Source: Bacilli bacterium
GTDB taxonomy: Bacteria > Bacillota_I > Bacilli_A > RFN20 > CAG-826
Direction: 5' to 3'
DNA length: 49,282 bases
Assembly (NCBI GenBank): GCA_024687185.1
Contig: JAILEX010000072.1
Location: 1 to 49,282, forward strand
Part shown: positions 5,773 to 36,409 of the stretch, one piece after another
Layout: each line of letters begins with the position of its first letter
Numbering within the stretch: position 1 is the first letter of the stretch
Program-made: the position numbers and the translations under genes
The notes under the pieces: model-generated
What the model was told of the DNA's origin: nothing
What the model saw: only the letters and a program-made list of their open reading frames with translations
Databases searched by the model: none

Positions 5773-6422
5773 TGCCCAATATCGATCCATTAATCCTAGA
5801 AGCATTGCCCTCTTCCCCCGATAATGGGGCCTTTCTAGTTGCCAGGAAAGAATCCTATCGAAGCGAGAAGGGCAGGAAGGCCTGTTTTGAACTCCTTAGA
5901 AGCCTACTAAAGGAAAAGCGCTACAACCATAGCATTTCCGTCGGCGGGCTTTGCGAAATGGCCGCGAAGAAGCAGGGCAAGGATGCACTCGACGCCAAAT
6001 GGACTGGCATCCTTCACGATTGCGCCAAATACCTTAAGAAAGACGAGGCGAAGGCCTTAATGGAGAAGTACTATCCTTCTTTCGCGAGCGGCCCAGAATG
6101 GACTTATCACCAGTTTTTGGGCGCTTTGCTTGCCAAAGAGGTCTTCGGCGTGGAAAATACCGAGGTCCTGGACGCGATTCGCTTCCATGCGACCGGGAAG
6201 AAGGAGATGTGCTATCTAGGCAAGCTCGTCTATGCCTGCGACAAAATCGATCCCCTTAGGGGATATGATTCCGCGGATATGATAAAATCGGTCGTCGCCG
6301 ACACGGACAAAGGCTTTGTCTATGTCCTAGATGAGAACCGCAAATACTATCAGACCAAGGGCTTTGATCCAGACCCCCTCACCAAAGAATGCTTCCTCTA
6401 TTACCTGAACTATAAAATGTAG
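5769..6422 (+). CDS. yqeK: HD-domain Ap4A hydrolase YqeK
   Basis: An HD-superfamily metal-dependent hydrolase. YqeK proteins split diadenosine tetraphosphate symmetrically. Metal ligands are visible: His54, His83-Asp84, His114, His140 and Asp158 in ACDKIDPLRGY. At 217 residues it is longer than usual because about 45 residues precede the normal start of the domain (RYNHSISV). This extension does not resemble NadD to my eye. In most Firmicutes nadD lies between yhbY and yqeK; here it is missing. No ribosome site is seen, and translation is coupled to yhbY through the 4-base overlap (ATG 5769 or 5772). Confidence 0.9.
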   Translation: MMPNIDPLILEALPSSPDNGAFLVARKESYRSEKGRKACFELLRSLLKEKRYNHSISVGGLCEMAAKKQGKDALDAKWTGILHDCAKYLKKDEAKALMEKYYPSFASGPEWTYHQFLGALLAKEVFGVENTEVLDAIRFHATGKKEMCYLGKLVYACDKIDPLRGYDSADMIKSVVADTDKGFVYVLDENRKYYQTKGFDPDPLTKECFLYYLNYKM

Positions 6423-17677: not shown

Positions 17678-19417
17678 TTACTTCTCCTCTTCCTCCTTGA
17701 CCATGATGGCGAGGTCCTCGAGCTGTTTCGGATCGACGACGCGCGGCGCTTTGCTTAGTGGGTCGGCGGCGTTTAGATTCTTCGGGAAGGCGATGACGTC
17801 GCGGATATTCTCGGTCCCTGTAAGGATCATGCAAAGCCTTTCCAAACCGAAGGCGAGTCCGCCATGTGGGGGCGCGCCATAGGAGAAGGCATCGATGAAC
17901 CAGCCAAATTTCTCGGCCACTTGTTCTTCGCTTAGGCCTAGGAGGCGGAATATCTTCCATTGGATATCGTGGTCATAGATACGGAGGGTTCCGCCGCCGG
18001 CTTCATAGCCGTTGATGACGATATCGTAGGCATAGGCGAGGACCCTTTCGGGATCGCTATCCAAATAGGGTAGGTCTTCGTCTTTTGGACGGGTGAAGGG
18101 ATGGTGTTCCGCGGTATAGCGGTCCTCCCCTTCGACTTTGTCGAACATCGGGAAGTCCACGACCCAGAGCAAGTCATAGGTGTTGGGTTTGATGAGGCCA
18201 AGGCGATTGGCGAAGAATAGACGTAGCGCGCCTAATGCGGTATCGATGTGCCGCCTAGAATCGCTTGCGGCGAATAATAGCAAGTCGCCTTCTTTGAGCG
18301 ATAGGCCGTTAACAAGCCTAGAAGCATGCTCTTCATCGAGGAATTTGGCGAAGCTGCCTCCTAGGCCGTCCTTTTCGACTTTAATCGACAGGACGCCCTT
18401 TAATCCGAATTTACGCATTTCCATCGTAACTTCGTCTAGGACCTTCCTAGAGAAGGAAGGAGCCTCTCCTTCTATTACGATGCCCTTGATGAAGGGATTG
18501 CCTTCGAAGCCGTTGAATTCGACCCCTTCCATATAGGAAGAGAGGTCGCGGAGCAACAAGCCGAACCTGGTGTCTGGCTTATCGCTACCATAATTGTCCA
18601 TGGCATCCCAGAATTTCATCCTGGGAAGCGGGGTGACGATATCGACTCCCGCCACTTCTTTGAAGATCCTCTTGAGGAAGCCTTCCATCAAGGTGAGGAT
18701 CTCCTCTTGGTCGAGGAAGCTCATCTCGAGGTCGAGCTGGGTGAATTCGGGTTGCCTATCGGCGCGTAGGTCCTCGTCGCGGAAGCATCTTGCGACCTGG
18801 TAATACCTTTCGGTGCCGGCGCACATAAGAAGCTGCTTCCATAGCTGCGGGCTTTGGGGCAAGGCGTAGAAGGCGCCATGGCGAAGCCTGGAGGGGACTA
18901 GGTATTCCTTCGCCCCTTCGGGGGATGAAAGGTTAAGAATCGGGGTCTCGATCTCCAAAAAGCCGTTTTCATCGAAATATTCGCGGAAGATCTTGCAGAC
19001 CTTCGCCCTGGCTTTTAGCTTGTTGAGCATGCAGGGACGGCGGAGGTCGAGATAGCGTAAGGCAAGGCGGGTATCCTCTAAGGCATCGGTTTTGTCGGCG
19101 ATGATAAAAGGCGGGTTCTTGGCTTTGTTAAGGACTTCCATTTCCTCCAAAACGATTTCGACTTCGCCCGTAGCCAAAGCGGGGTTTGGCTTATCCTTTA
19201 GCCTGACGGTACCGACGACTTTGACGACATATTCGCTTCTAATGTCGGGGAAATCGTCTGGATGGTCGGTGAAAACCTGGACGATGCCGGTGCTATCGCG
19301 CAAATCGAAGAACAACAAAGAGCCTAGGTTCCTTCTTGTGGCAACCCAGCCCGCGAGGGTGACTTTCTGCCCCGCATGTTCCTTCCTTAATAGTCCATTG
19401 TAGATACTTCTTTTCAT
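17678..19417 (-). CDS. aspS: Aspartyl-tRNA synthetase
   Basis: A class II synthetase (579 residues) of the bacterial type. An N-terminal OB-fold anticodon-binding domain (GWVATRRNLGSLLFFDLRD) is followed by motif 2, FRDEDLRADRQPEFTQLD, a bacterial GAD insertion domain (about 280-410), and motif 3, GLAFGLERLCM. It lies 36 bases downstream of hisS. The hisS-aspS pair is a standard Firmicutes arrangement. AGAAGG precedes the ATG. Confidence 0.96.
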   Translation of the reverse strand: MKRSIYNGLLRKEHAGQKVTLAGWVATRRNLGSLLFFDLRDSTGIVQVFTDHPDDFPDIRSEYVVKVVGTVRLKDKPNPALATGEVEIVLEEMEVLNKAKNPPFIIADKTDALEDTRLALRYLDLRRPCMLNKLKARAKVCKIFREYFDENGFLEIETPILNLSSPEGAKEYLVPSRLRHGAFYALPQSPQLWKQLLMCAGTERYYQVARCFRDEDLRADRQPEFTQLDLEMSFLDQEEILTLMEGFLKRIFKEVAGVDIVTPLPRMKFWDAMDNYGSDKPDTRFGLLLRDLSSYMEGVEFNGFEGNPFIKGIVIEGEAPSFSRKVLDEVTMEMRKFGLKGVLSIKVEKDGLGGSFAKFLDEEHASRLVNGLSLKEGDLLLFAASDSRRHIDTALGALRLFFANRLGLIKPNTYDLLWVVDFPMFDKVEGEDRYTAEHHPFTRPKDEDLPYLDSDPERVLAYAYDIVINGYEAGGGTLRIYDHDIQWKIFRLLGLSEEQVAEKFGWFIDAFSYGAPPHGGLAFGLERLCMILTGTENIRDVIAFPKNLNAADPLSKAPRVVDPKQLEDLAIMVKEEEEK

Positions 19418-19453: not shown

Positions 19454-20965
19454 TTAGTCGTCTTTTTTGCCGTCTTTGTGGTGATGGCAGTGATAATCTT
19501 TCTCTTCCTCGTGGTGGTGGCAGCAATGGTGTTCCCCTTCGCCTTCCTCCTCATCATGGTGGTGGCAGCAATGGTGTTCCCCTTCGCCTTCCTCCTCATC
19601 ATGATGGTGGCAGCAATGGTGTTCGCCCTCTTCCCCTTCGTGGTTATGGCAGCAGCAATGGTGCTCCTCCTCTTCCTCATGCTCGTCTAGGATCATGGAG
19701 AGGGTTTCGTCTAGGGTCTCGATATTGGCTTCGACCTGCTCTTCGGTGGCGAGGTTTTTGACCTGGACCACGCCATTATTGATTTCGTCTTCCCCAAAGA
19801 TGATGGCGACCTTGGCCTTTTTGCGGTTGGCTTTCTTGAACATCGAGCCCAATTTGGTCTTGGCGTAAGGCACTTCCACCGTATACCCAAGGCCGCGGAT
19901 CTGCTCGGCCAAAACGAAGGCGTGTTCGATATAATCCTCGGTTAGGGGCATCATATAGATGTCCAGAGTCTCGGCGACGCCCTCCAGGAGGTTATTGTCG
20001 CGCATAAGCGAATATAGCCTCTCCACGCCAAAGGCGAATCCAACGCCGCTATCGCATTCGACCCTGCCGCCGAAGTTGGCGAGTAGGCCATCGTAGTGTC
20101 CGCCACCCATGATCGCGCCATAATCGGCGCCGGTGGGGCTGGAGGCGTGGACCTCGAAGACGATGTGGCCATAGTAGTCGAGTCCCCTGACGAGGGTGTC
20201 GTCTATTTCGTAGTCGACCCCTTCCTGGCTGAGGATCGATAGGGTCTTATAGAACCTTTCCTCGGCCTCTTTGGTGAGGAAGTCCTTCATCCTGGGCGCG
20301 CCTTCGACGAGCTTTTGGTCTTCCTTTACCTTGCAATCCAATATGCGTAGGGGGTTGAGCTCGTAGCGGTTTTTGCAGTCGTCGCACATTTCCTCTAGAT
20401 GCGGCTTGAAGTATTGCTTCAACGCCTCTTTATAGGCATCGCGGCTTGCTTTGTCGCCTAGGGTATTGACCTTGACCTTAACGCCGCGGAAGCCTAGATA
20501 AGAAAGCGTGCGCATCGCTAAGGCGATCGTTTCGGCGTCTAGCCAAGGGGAATCCTGGCCAACGCATTCGACGCCGGCTTGGATGAATTGGCGGTATCTG
20601 CCAAGTTGCGGCCTCTCATAACGGAATACGGGTCCGCTATAGAATAGCTTTAGGGGGACGTCCCCGGTGGCGAGCAACTTCTTCTCGACGATGCATCTAG
20701 CGACGCCCGCGGTCAGCTCCGGACGGAGGGTGATCGACCTTTCGCCCTTATCGAGGAAGGTATACATCTCCTTCCTTACGACGTCGCTGCCTTCGCCGGT
20801 GGAACGCAAAAAGCATTCGGTATGCTCCATGATCGGGGTTTCGATGGGTTGGTAGCCATATAGGCCAGCCACCGCCCTAAAGACGTTTTGGATATAGGTA
20901 TAGGCAGAGGATTCCTCCGCGATCATGTCGTGGGTGCCTTTGACGGCGATGATGTTGTTTGCCAT
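19454..20965 (-). CDS. hisS: Histidyl-tRNA synthetase with His/Cys-rich C-terminal tail
   Basis: A class II synthetase. Residues 1-428 form a normal HisRS: KGTHDM at the start, motif 2 FRYERPQLGRYRQF, the histidine motif RGLDYYG, motif 3 GFAFGVERL, and a C-terminal anticodon-binding domain. The protein then continues for 75 residues (429-503) with no counterpart in the family. By my count this tail has 24 His, 10 Cys and many Glu/Gly. It contains three repeats with the core HHCCHHH and ends in a basic-acidic stub. The tail is in frame with one stop at 19454. His/Cys tails of this kind bind Zn or Ni in proteins such as SlyD; metal binding here is inferred. Only an AGAGG-like ribosome site is seen. 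Confidence 0.95.
   Translation of the reverse strand: MANNIIAVKGTHDMIAEESSAYTYIQNVFRAVAGLYGYQPIETPIMEHTECFLRSTGEGSDVVRKEMYTFLDKGERSITLRPELTAGVARCIVEKKLLATGDVPLKLFYSGPVFRYERPQLGRYRQFIQAGVECVGQDSPWLDAETIALAMRTLSYLGFRGVKVKVNTLGDKASRDAYKEALKQYFKPHLEEMCDDCKNRYELNPLRILDCKVKEDQKLVEGAPRMKDFLTKEAEERFYKTLSILSQEGVDYEIDDTLVRGLDYYGHIVFEVHASSPTGADYGAIMGGGHYDGLLANFGGRVECDSGVGFAFGVERLYSLMRDNNLLEGVAETLDIYMMPLTEDYIEHAFVLAEQIRGLGYTVEVPYAKTKLGSMFKKANRKKAKVAIIFGEDEINNGVVQVKNLATEEQVEANIETLDETLSMILDEHEEEEEHHCCCHNHEGEEGEHHCCHHHDEEEGEGEHHCCHHHDEEEGEGEHHCCHHHEEEKDYHCHHHKDGKKDD
19521..19652 (-). repeat. 45-base tandem repeat in hisS
   Basis: Three consecutive units start at 19521, 19566 and 19611 (45, 45 and 42 bases), each beginning with CAGCAATGGTGTTC on the plus strand. 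Two units are nearly identical and the outer copy is diverged. They encode the HHCCHHH-acidic repeats of the HisRS tail and show that it grew by in-frame duplication. Confidence 0.9.
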
Positions 20966-21094: not shown

Positions 21095-23338
21095 TCAATG
21101 CGTGACCCTAGTGACGCTATAGACGCCTTTTAGACCAAGCAAATCGGCGAAGCAATCCTGGAGGATCTTCGCGTCAGTGACTAAGGCCGTCAAGGTGACG
21201 GAGCATTCCTGCGTCTCGTGGTAGCTATGGGCGGAGAGGTCGCTTACGCCTACCCCTTTTGCGGATAGGGTTTGCAGGATTTCCGCGAGTAGGTTCGGCC
21301 TATCGCTAGAATAGATTTCTATGTCGACCGGATAATTGGATAGACCGAGGTCCTCCTTCCAATAAGCGTCGATCAGACGCCTATTTTCGGCGATGATGTT
21401 GGGACAAGTCACCCTATGGACGGTGATGCCTTTGCCCCTGGTGACGTAGCCGACGATGCTATCTCCGGGAATCGGGCAGCAGCATTTGCCGAGGGTGACG
21501 GCCATGCCGCTATCCATGCCGGGTATCCTAACGGGGTATTTGGTGTCGCTGATCGCGCTTTTGGTGCGCTTGACCGCCTTTTCCAAATCGAAGGCGGATT
21601 TCCTTTTTATCTTCAGGAAGTCCAAAACCGCCGAAGGGGTTGGGTTTTTGCCATATACAAGCAAATAGAGGTCATCGATGGAATTGCAGTGGAATTCGCT
21701 TTTCAGGTTGGTGATGTTGTTCTCCAATATCCTAACGGCCTCTTCTTCCAAGATATCGGCGTTACGGAAGGAATCCATCAAGGACGCTTTCCCGCTTTGC
21801 GTCCTCTCTTCCGTTAGCGACTCCTCCTCTTTCCTTTGCAGTGCCTTCTTGATGTGGCTTCTTGCGCTACTGGTCTTGGCGATTTCAAGCCAGGAGGAAT
21901 TGGGGGAGGCGTTTTTCGAGGTGCGGATTTCGCATACGTCGCCTGTTTTCAAAACGGTGTTCAAGGGCACGCCGATGCCATTTACTATCGCCCCCGTTGC
22001 GCTATCGCCAACCCTGGTATGGATTTTATAGGCGAAGTCCAAAGTGGTGGAGCCGGTAGGCAAGTCGATGACTTTGCCAAGCGGGGTGAAGACATAGACG
22101 TTTGCCCCGAAGATATCGTGGGTAAGTCCCTGCATGTATTCCTTCGCGCCGACATCGGATTCGCCGCTCATCGCGACGAAATCGCGGAACCAGTGGAGCT
22201 GGTTTTCGATTTCCTTCTGCTCGGCTTTGGCGGAATAGTTGGAGTTTTCCTTATACTTCCAGTGCGCGGCGACGCCGGTCTCGGCGATCCTGTCCATTTC
22301 CTCGGTGCGGATTTGGACCTCATAGGTTTGCGAGTCGCCGGCGAGGACGCTGGTGTGGATGGATTGGTACATGTTCGGCTTGGGGGTCGCGATATAGTCT
22401 TTGAACCTATCTTGGATCGGGGCGAACATCGAATGGATGATACCTAGGATCTCATAGCAATTGATGACGGTCTCGGTGATGATGCGGATGGCGAGGACGT
22501 CATAGATCTGTTCGAATTCATAGTCTTTGCGGTACATCTTCTTATAGATCGAATATACCGATTTGACGCGGCTTTCTAGCCTAAAGGGGATCTTTTGCTC
22601 ATACAGGGTGTCGGCCACCTTCTTCTTGAATTGCTCAAGGCTTTTCTCGGTGTTGACGCACTTTTGCTCGACGAGCTTTTCGATGCGGTTATATTTGGAG
22701 GGTTCAAGGTATTTTAAGGAGATGTCCTCAAGCTCGCTTTGGATGTTATATAGGCCTAGCCTATGGGCGATGGGGGTGAAGACCTCCAAAGTCTCCTTGG
22801 AAAGCGCCTTTTGCCTTTCTGGGGACAAGGAGGCGAGGGTGCGCATGTTGTGGAGCCTATCGGCGAGTTTGACGATGATGACGCGGACGTCCTTGGCCAT
22901 GCCTAGGAAGATTTTGCGGTGGTCTTCCGCCTCGAAGTCCTCCTCGGTCTTATGGCTAAGCTTCATGCGCTGGATCTTGGTGAGGGAGTCTACGATTCCC
23001 TGGACCTCCTCGCCGAATTTCTGCCCGATTTCCTCGATGGTGACGTCGGTATCCTCGACTACGTCGTGGAGGAGGGCGCTGGCAAGGGTGGCTGGCCCGC
23101 TTTGTAGCTCGGCGCAGATATAGGCCACTTCAAGCGGGTGGACGATATAGGCTTCGCCGCTTTTGCGGAATTGGCCTTCGTGCTTTTCCTTGGCGAGGGT
23201 ATAGGCGTCATGGATGAGCTGCCTGCTTTTTACGTCTTGGATATAGGGGAAAAACAGGGCCTTGAAGTCCTCATAGCTATGGACCACGTTGCCGAAGCTA
23301 TCGGTAGGCGTGGCGTTATCCTTTTTCTCTACTTCCAT
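21095..23338 (-). CDS. relA: Bifunctional (p)ppGpp synthetase/hydrolase Rel
   Basis: A long RelA/SpoT homologue (747 residues). The hydrolase HD domain carries His53, His67 and His91-Asp92 (HDVVEDTDV), so hydrolysis should be active. The synthetase domain has RVKSVYSIYKKM, PKPNMYQSIHTSV and VQIRT. The TGS domain follows (VFTPLGKVIDLPTGST). Zinc-finger-like cysteines (GKCCCPIPGD) and a C-terminal ACT domain come last. Within the synthetase block a conserved His reads Asp (EEMDRIAE instead of EMHxxAE). AAGGGAAA is the likely ribosome site, and recJ ends 44 bases upstream. Confidence 0.95.
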   Translation of the reverse strand: MEVEKKDNATPTDSFGNVVHSYEDFKALFFPYIQDVKSRQLIHDAYTLAKEKHEGQFRKSGEAYIVHPLEVAYICAELQSGPATLASALLHDVVEDTDVTIEEIGQKFGEEVQGIVDSLTKIQRMKLSHKTEEDFEAEDHRKIFLGMAKDVRVIIVKLADRLHNMRTLASLSPERQKALSKETLEVFTPIAHRLGLYNIQSELEDISLKYLEPSKYNRIEKLVEQKCVNTEKSLEQFKKKVADTLYEQKIPFRLESRVKSVYSIYKKMYRKDYEFEQIYDVLAIRIITETVINCYEILGIIHSMFAPIQDRFKDYIATPKPNMYQSIHTSVLAGDSQTYEVQIRTEEMDRIAETGVAAHWKYKENSNYSAKAEQKEIENQLHWFRDFVAMSGESDVGAKEYMQGLTHDIFGANVYVFTPLGKVIDLPTGSTTLDFAYKIHTRVGDSATGAIVNGIGVPLNTVLKTGDVCEIRTSKNASPNSSWLEIAKTSSARSHIKKALQRKEEESLTEERTQSGKASLMDSFRNADILEEEAVRILENNITNLKSEFHCNSIDDLYLLVYGKNPTPSAVLDFLKIKRKSAFDLEKAVKRTKSAISDTKYPVRIPGMDSGMAVTLGKCCCPIPGDSIVGYVTRGKGITVHRVTCPNIIAENRRLIDAYWKEDLGLSNYPVDIEIYSSDRPNLLAEILQTLSAKGVGVSDLSAHSYHETQECSVTLTALVTDAKILQDCFADLLGLKGVYSVTRVTH

Positions 23339-35533: not shown

Positions 35534-36409
35534 TTATTCAGCGGTGAAAAGGCGGACGAGGTTGGAGGTCGTTAGGCCAACATAGTAGCTGCCCGCGACT
35601 AAAACTTTGACGTTTTTGTCATTATCGTCGGTGACGGTCCAGTTGGATTCGTTCTCGGTTGCCCAATTGGCGTCGCCGCTATACCAGGTATAGCTGCCAC
35701 TTCCTTCGATGCCAAAGATGACTTTGACCATGTTGTTCACTTCAAAGGCGATGGTTTCTTTGGTGACGTAGCTATAGGTTCTGGCTAGGTCGCCGGTGGC
35801 CTCTACCATCTTAACGGCGCCGTCGGTGCCCCAGCTGCAGCTGCCATAGGAGCCGGTGACGAAATAGTTTTCGGTGGGCTTTTGTTCGCCGGAAGATTTG
35901 TCTAGGACTAAGGAAGCAACCTTGGCTTCATCGGTGATGGTGAGATAGACGCTATAGGTGCCCTTGTCGTTCGCGACGAGGTTTGCGCCACTGGCGTCGC
36001 CATACCAGTCATCGTTGCCAATGGTGCTGCCATCGGCGCTATAGACGACCTTTATCGAATCGTTCCAGGATAGGCTTAGGCCATGGAAGACGGCACTATA
36101 GGCGGATTCGTCGTCGGATTCGGGAGCCCACATCTGGTGTCCTTCGGTGATGCCCCAACCAGTGACGCTACCAACAACGTAATAGTCGACGTAGGTATGG
36201 GATTCTTCGCTTGACGCATCATCTGTGACAGAGGCGACTTCATCGCTGGTGTCATCGGCAACGGAAGTGGCTTCGGTTGTGGCGGCTTCTGTTGTGGCGG
36301 CTTCGGTTGTGGCGGCTGCGGAAGAGCTCGCTGCACTGCTGGAACCGCCGCCGCAGGAAGCGAGGAGCATTGCTGCAGATAGCAATGCGACTTTAAGTAG
36401 ATTGTTCAT
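35534..36409 (-). CDS. Lipoprotein with two starch-binding-like modules
   Basis: A 291-residue lipoprotein. Lipobox LLAS-C is at 16-19, followed by a low-complexity Ala/Thr/Glu/Ser stalk (about 20-72) containing three TTEAA repeats. Two related beta modules follow: residues about 73-170 (YVDYYVVGSVTGWG to SVYLTI) and about 181-290 (NYFVTGSYGSCSWG to YYVGLTTSNLVRLF). Each has a small-ligand-binding pattern of aromatic residues with GSxxxW and W-Y-G/S-G/D (DDWYGD, YTWYSGD). Binding of alpha-glucan at the surface is inferred from similarity to the modules of its neighbours. It lies 96 bases after the pullulanase with no terminator between. AAAGGAG precedes the ATG. Confidence 0.78.
   Translation of the reverse strand: MNNLLKVALLSAAMLLASCGGGSSSAASSSAAATTEAATTEAATTEATSVADDTSDEVASVTDDASSEESHTYVDYYVVGSVTGWGITEGHQMWAPESDDESAYSAVFHGLSLSWNDSIKVVYSADGSTIGNDDWYGDASGANLVANDKGTYSVYLTITDEAKVASLVLDKSSGEQKPTENYFVTGSYGSCSWGTDGAVKMVEATGDLARTYSYVTKETIAFEVNNMVKVIFGIEGSGSYTWYSGDANWATENESNWTVTDDNDKNVKVLVAGSYYVGLTTSNLVRLFTAE
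36271..36315 (-). repeat. 15-base tandem repeat in lipoprotein stalk
   Basis: Three head-to-tail 15-base units (36271, 36286, 36301), CTTCGGTTGTGGCGG on the plus strand, differing at one base. They encode repeated ATTEA in the stalk and could vary its length by slippage. Confidence 0.85.

Follow-up and report, generated by a model that had tools for sequence, protein, structure and literature searches.

A Bacilli bacterium (NCBI GenBank assembly GCA_024687185.1, contig JAILEX010000072.1) encodes a histidyl-tRNA synthetase (HisRS) that ends in a long tail of histidine, cysteine and acidic residues. The gene, hisS, occupies positions 19454 to 20965 on the minus strand of the window (the whole 49,282-nucleotide stretch that was analyzed), and its 503-residue product comprises complete catalytic and anticodon-binding domains followed by the C-terminal tail. 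Such a tail is a recurrent feature of HisRS in this genus and turns up again within the order to which it belongs. Judging from its sequence, it is probably a flexible, interchangeable appendage for binding metal (Zn, Ni, Co or Cu), attached to a HisRS that is ordinary in all other respects. The body of the protein matches the hisS equivalog model TIGR00442 over residues 7–414 with 459.1 bits, against a cut-off of 286.75, which places it among the bacterial HisRS. The Pfam domains tRNA-synt_His and HGTP_anticodon both score above cut-off, the last of them stopping at residue 422.

The tail spans residues 429–503 (codons 19457–19681, stop codon 19454–19456, minus strand). Its 75 residues include 24 His, 10 Cys, 28 Asp/Glu and 4 Lys/Arg, compared with 7 His and 7 Cys in the 428 residues of the core. 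At the core frequency of His+Cys (14 in 428), the binomial probability of at least 34 such residues in 75 is ~2e-30. Within the tail, a 45-bp tandem repeat runs in frame (19498–19629, minus strand; 2.9 copies, 93% match). Repeat units 1 and 2 both encode EHHCCHHHDEEEGEG and differ in one synonymous base of a His codon, and unit 3 departs from the others after EHHCCHHH. The first-pass annotation, made from the letters of the window alone, had singled out the His/Cys-rich tail and its repeat, and both are borne out by the 503-residue open reading frame, even though the end it gave for the tail was off by one base. Its view that the repeat had grown recently by slippage is supported for this species by the near-identical units, which would fit slippage or unequal exchange. 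In the AlphaFold model, a helix extends over residues 415–433 and the per-residue confidence (pLDDT) is ~28–39 from residue 431 onward, so that residues 430–503 are predicted to be disordered. No second acidic, His-rich frame was found in the window, where the next densest frame contains 5 His per 20 residues.

HisRS was detected in 57 of 61 genomes (this genome and its relatives), and reading the C-termini at the relatives' loci together with 80 loci of named genomes gave 126 distinct HisRS. A His/Cys-rich end of variable length was found on 46 of them. Within the genus, 23 of 27 HisRS carry some tail of this kind, our own included (24 of 28 over L001–L028, from which L027, of another genus in the same family, was dropped). 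The tail is therefore common in this genus, where the first-pass annotation had known of none in the family. An assembly or frameshift artefact, which that annotation had envisaged should close relatives lack the tail, is ruled out, since tails recur in frame in independent genomes.

The HisRS ends range from GEEEEHHHE via LENPEHEHGEGCTCGHCHD up to ~50–75 residues (our own, L002, L003, L032, L036, L042 and L055). The shortest are of the HHHE type, and many tails of the lineage finish in 3–6 His directly before the stop codon. His and Cys substitute for each other among these tails; two HisRS (L015 and L105) have tails free of His, and in one of the two all clusters are of the CC and CCC kind. 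The named genomes with a tailed HisRS are mainly metagenome-assembled genomes of uncultured Bacilli, Mollicutes and Erysipelotrichaceae, and several bear rumen or faecal isolate names. None of 42 HisRS of the Bacillaceae, Streptococcus and Fructobacillus/Weissella type, which form one branch of the tree, has a tail, and neither does a clade of four within the genus (L016, L021, L025 and L026). On a tree of the HisRS core alone, the tail label requires 13 changes, at least 10 of which are forced by supported branches, and tails have therefore been repeatedly gained or lost. A composite-tail search of 147 genomes of the order matched our own tail and one sister tail only, because such low-complexity tails are too variable for this kind of search.

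A second, unrelated enzyme bears tails of this kind as well. When 60 relatives were scanned for the pattern HHHE followed by a stop codon, the matches were hisS and one other protein, a PduL-type phosphate propanoyltransferase (phosphotransacylase, PF06130). Most species of the genus carry PduL tails with CCC, CxC, HHH and acidic residues, such as ECCCDDECECDDENCECHHHE, EGCDCDCEGEGHDGEGCCCGHHHHHE and VDCDCDCDCCEGEECCCEKE (genus loci covered: L183, L185, L186, L187, L189, L191 and L257–L276), and some PduL tails contain no His. The PduL of our own genome (L257) and those of its two closest sisters are tailless, and the PduL proteins that were read from other parts of the family and order showed no tail at their end. 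For the clade with tailless HisRS, three PduL C-termini were read (G018, G003 and G004), all of them tailed. A third carrier is a 172-residue frame without a Pfam match in an order-mate (L205; G046:C19, around 6099–6116), whose long His/Cys/acidic tail includes EECCHDHENGHCCCHHDHDDEECGCEEHCNCNH. The cysteinyl-tRNA synthetase (CysRS) was tailless at all 30 loci read, which rules out tails of the cognate residue as a general rule for synthetases. His/Cys-rich tails as such are already known on chaperones and metal-delivery proteins; their placement on a tRNA synthetase and a second enzyme is real and recurrent, and in the literature searched we found no description of such a tail on HisRS or PduL.

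We then considered which other proteins share this composition, using sampled stretches and pattern scans for our own genome. Sampling covered ~395 kb of our own genome, counting the window, and ~390 kb from the genome of a sister (~785 kb in total). Across the whole of our own genome, the pattern HCCxH occurred in hisS only, and the 30 sites fetched for the pattern HHxxHH contained acidic His-rich frames only in hisS and in a CobW/COG0523 metal-chaperone GTPase (own contig C107, L286:13907-15166, minus strand), which has the poly-His/Asp linker HHHHDDDDDDDDEHEHHHEEGHHHHHHHHHH. The same two genes were the only ones to stand out in the ~395 kb sample, and the GTPase is the sole other protein of tail composition found in our own genome, where Cys-only motifs were not scanned genome-wide. 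In the sister sample, the strongest match was the His/Cys-rich loop HHLHDCEGEEAVHHGCCGH of a putative heavy-metal exporter, a membrane protein of the ArsP_2 type (L255:2928-3794, G028, plus strand). The closest compositional matches are therefore metal-handling proteins. Furthermore, the CobW-type GTPases of order-mates hold an almost identical HHCCHHH-acid motif, HHCCHHHDEDEHDEEHHCCHHH, in their linker. Our own genome also contains two HypA-family genes, adjoining FeS-flavoprotein-like genes; they make nickel a possible candidate.

Several known systems invite comparison. The closest is HspA, the GroES of Helicobacter pylori, whose His/Cys-rich C-terminal extension binds nickel and whose deletion leads to less cell nickel and greater nickel sensitivity (PMC3856676). 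The HisRS tail likewise extends a cytosolic housekeeping protein at its C-terminus with densely packed His and Cys; the carrier of the HspA extension, however, is a co-chaperonin rather than a tRNA synthetase, and the binding that was measured for HspA is what we infer for the HisRS tail. His-stretches also occur in a wider class of GTPases, COG0523/CobW, HypB and UreG (PMC2770081). These stretches are acidic and His-rich like the HisRS tail, but belong, internally or terminally, to GTPase metallochaperones, whereas HisRS consists of synthetase domains without a G3E GTPase domain (PF02492) and lies outside that class. Ts-PCHTP of Trichinella, a poly-Cys, His-tailed metalloprotein found with Fe, Ni and Zn (PMC2954182), shares the poly-Cys clusters and the His tail, yet is an unrelated secreted nematode protein and not the tail of an enzyme. 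Bacterial metallothioneins resemble the tails in their CxC and CCC clusters, especially those of L015, L036, L042 and L165. The HisRS tail differs from them in mixing His with Cys and in being fused to an enzyme rather than forming a small stand-alone protein; as the end of a 503-residue enzyme with more His than Cys, it is not a metallothionein.

The closest tailed pair, L002 and L003, allowed us to compare substitutions in the core and the tail. Codon differences in the HisRS core were 46 synonymous and 4 nonsynonymous, and those in the tail 7 and 3, respectively. His/Cys codons showed 4 synonymous against 0 nonsynonymous changes (P ~0.012 or lower under simple expectations), a pattern that speaks against pure drift of the ligand codons. 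Among 25 genus members, the His+Cys numbers of the HisRS tail and the PduL tail were negatively correlated (Spearman -0.59, p 0.002), and every one of the 25 had a tail on at least one of the two enzymes. This trade-off comes down to three phylogenetically independent pairs on supported branches, and significance is lost when the relatedness of the species is taken into account. Should a larger set of genomes confirm it, the tail rather than the carrier would seem to be the unit selected.

Taken together, a metal-binding tail is suggested by ligand residues that recur across HisRS while His and Cys interchange, by similar tails on PduL, a phosphotransacylase unrelated to HisRS, by the CobW/COG0523 metal-chaperone GTPases as nearest compositional matches, by the purely synonymous change of ligand codons in L002/L003, by the predicted disorder of residues 430–503 and by the H. 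pylori GroES precedent. The His/Cys clusters (HHCCHHH, CCC and CxC), set among Glu/Asp/Gly spacers, would bind several metal ions per chain, the candidates being the soft or borderline divalent ions of Zn, Ni or Co, or Cu(I), and the loaded tail would store or buffer metal in the cytosol. Which enzyme carries it would be of little importance: tails occur on HisRS, PduL or the two together, and tail length would shift through in-frame repeat expansion. Tails on either of two unrelated enzymes would fit a movable appendage that holds metal better than a sensor of histidine supply. The Zn/Ni buffer proposed in the first-pass annotation fits the ligand residues, the composition of the CobW-type chaperone and the recurrence on PduL; the binding itself we infer from sequence. 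Some observations weigh against this interpretation. The selection test covers one species pair with few changes, some species have very short tails or have lost them, and HisRS from outside the lineage are mostly tailless. Moreover, hisS lies in an ordinary gene order with no metal genes adjoining, and the metal systems of this genome offer no clear link to it.

The tail might instead be functionless, having grown by near-neutral expansion at a C-terminus that tolerates slippage. The wide variation in tail length and composition, the recent repeat of our own species and the four tailless genus members are in line with such growth. We consider it unlikely, as the same His/Cys/acidic set is found on two unrelated enzymes and not on CysRS, such tails were hardly seen elsewhere in the ~785 kb sampled, and the ligand codons of the close pair changed synonymously only. 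It is likewise improbable that the tail mediates a metal-responsive control of HisRS, in which the tail, by binding metal or by encountering complexes of histidine with metal, would alter the charging activity or release histidine for charging. Histidine in its free form binds metals strongly, and across the order it is HisRS that recurrently carries the tail, unlike CysRS and nearly all proteins of the sampled stretches. However, the substrates of PduL, which bears the same kind of tail, do not include histidine, and the predicted disorder gives no sign that the tail docks on the core. Finally, the tail might report histidine supply, as the first-pass annotation proposed on the grounds that its completion requires charged His-tRNA; HisRS output or the expression of the downstream aspS would then follow histidine. 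This sensor idea could draw on the 24 His codons among the last 75 of the very enzyme that charges His-tRNA and on the His runs before many stop codons, but is very improbable in view of the His-free HisRS tails, the PduL tails (some without His, and none able to serve HisRS feedback), the tailless CysRS, an Rfam scan of the window at gathering scores with no T-box or other RNA match, and a junction between the hisS tail and aspS at which a simple consensus scan, itself weak evidence, found no coding-strand terminator-like site. The His-free tails, the Rfam result and that same junction scan likewise set the gene apart from his-leader-type attenuation. A dependence of tail completion on charged His-tRNA is possible as a side effect, and none of the observations favors a sensor over a metal role.

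On the minus strand of the window, the gene order is rel–hisS–aspS–tkt. The gene upstream of hisS encodes a rel/spoT-type (p)ppGpp synthetase/hydrolase (21095–23338, minus strand), named from reading its translation; rel is a conventional neighbor of hisS. The downstream gene, aspS (17678–19417, minus strand), was confirmed by its family model as encoding an aspartyl-tRNA synthetase, which has no His/Cys tail, and tkt was named from its sequence. No tRNA genes were found in the window. A separate 15-bp tandem repeat (36269–36321, 3.5 copies) encodes an EAATT repeat linker in a predicted lipoprotein-like open reading frame (35534–36409, minus strand).

Recurrent tails on a tRNA synthetase, together with those on a phosphotransacylase from one and the same genus, suggest that housekeeping enzymes may carry metal-buffering capacity in some bacteria. 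A broader proposal, namely that this lineage of gut bacteria keeps some of its exchangeable metal on ordinary enzymes equipped with interchangeable tails, the tail being a functional unit able to sit on different carriers (long on HisRS where PduL is tailless, and vice versa) and selection for buffering acting on the cell as a whole and not on the carrier, is speculative and we regard it as rather doubtful. Tailed HisRS proteins may bind Ni or Zn resins untagged, and the genus would provide a simple, testable system for how a tail originates, grows by repeat expansion and shifts between carriers.
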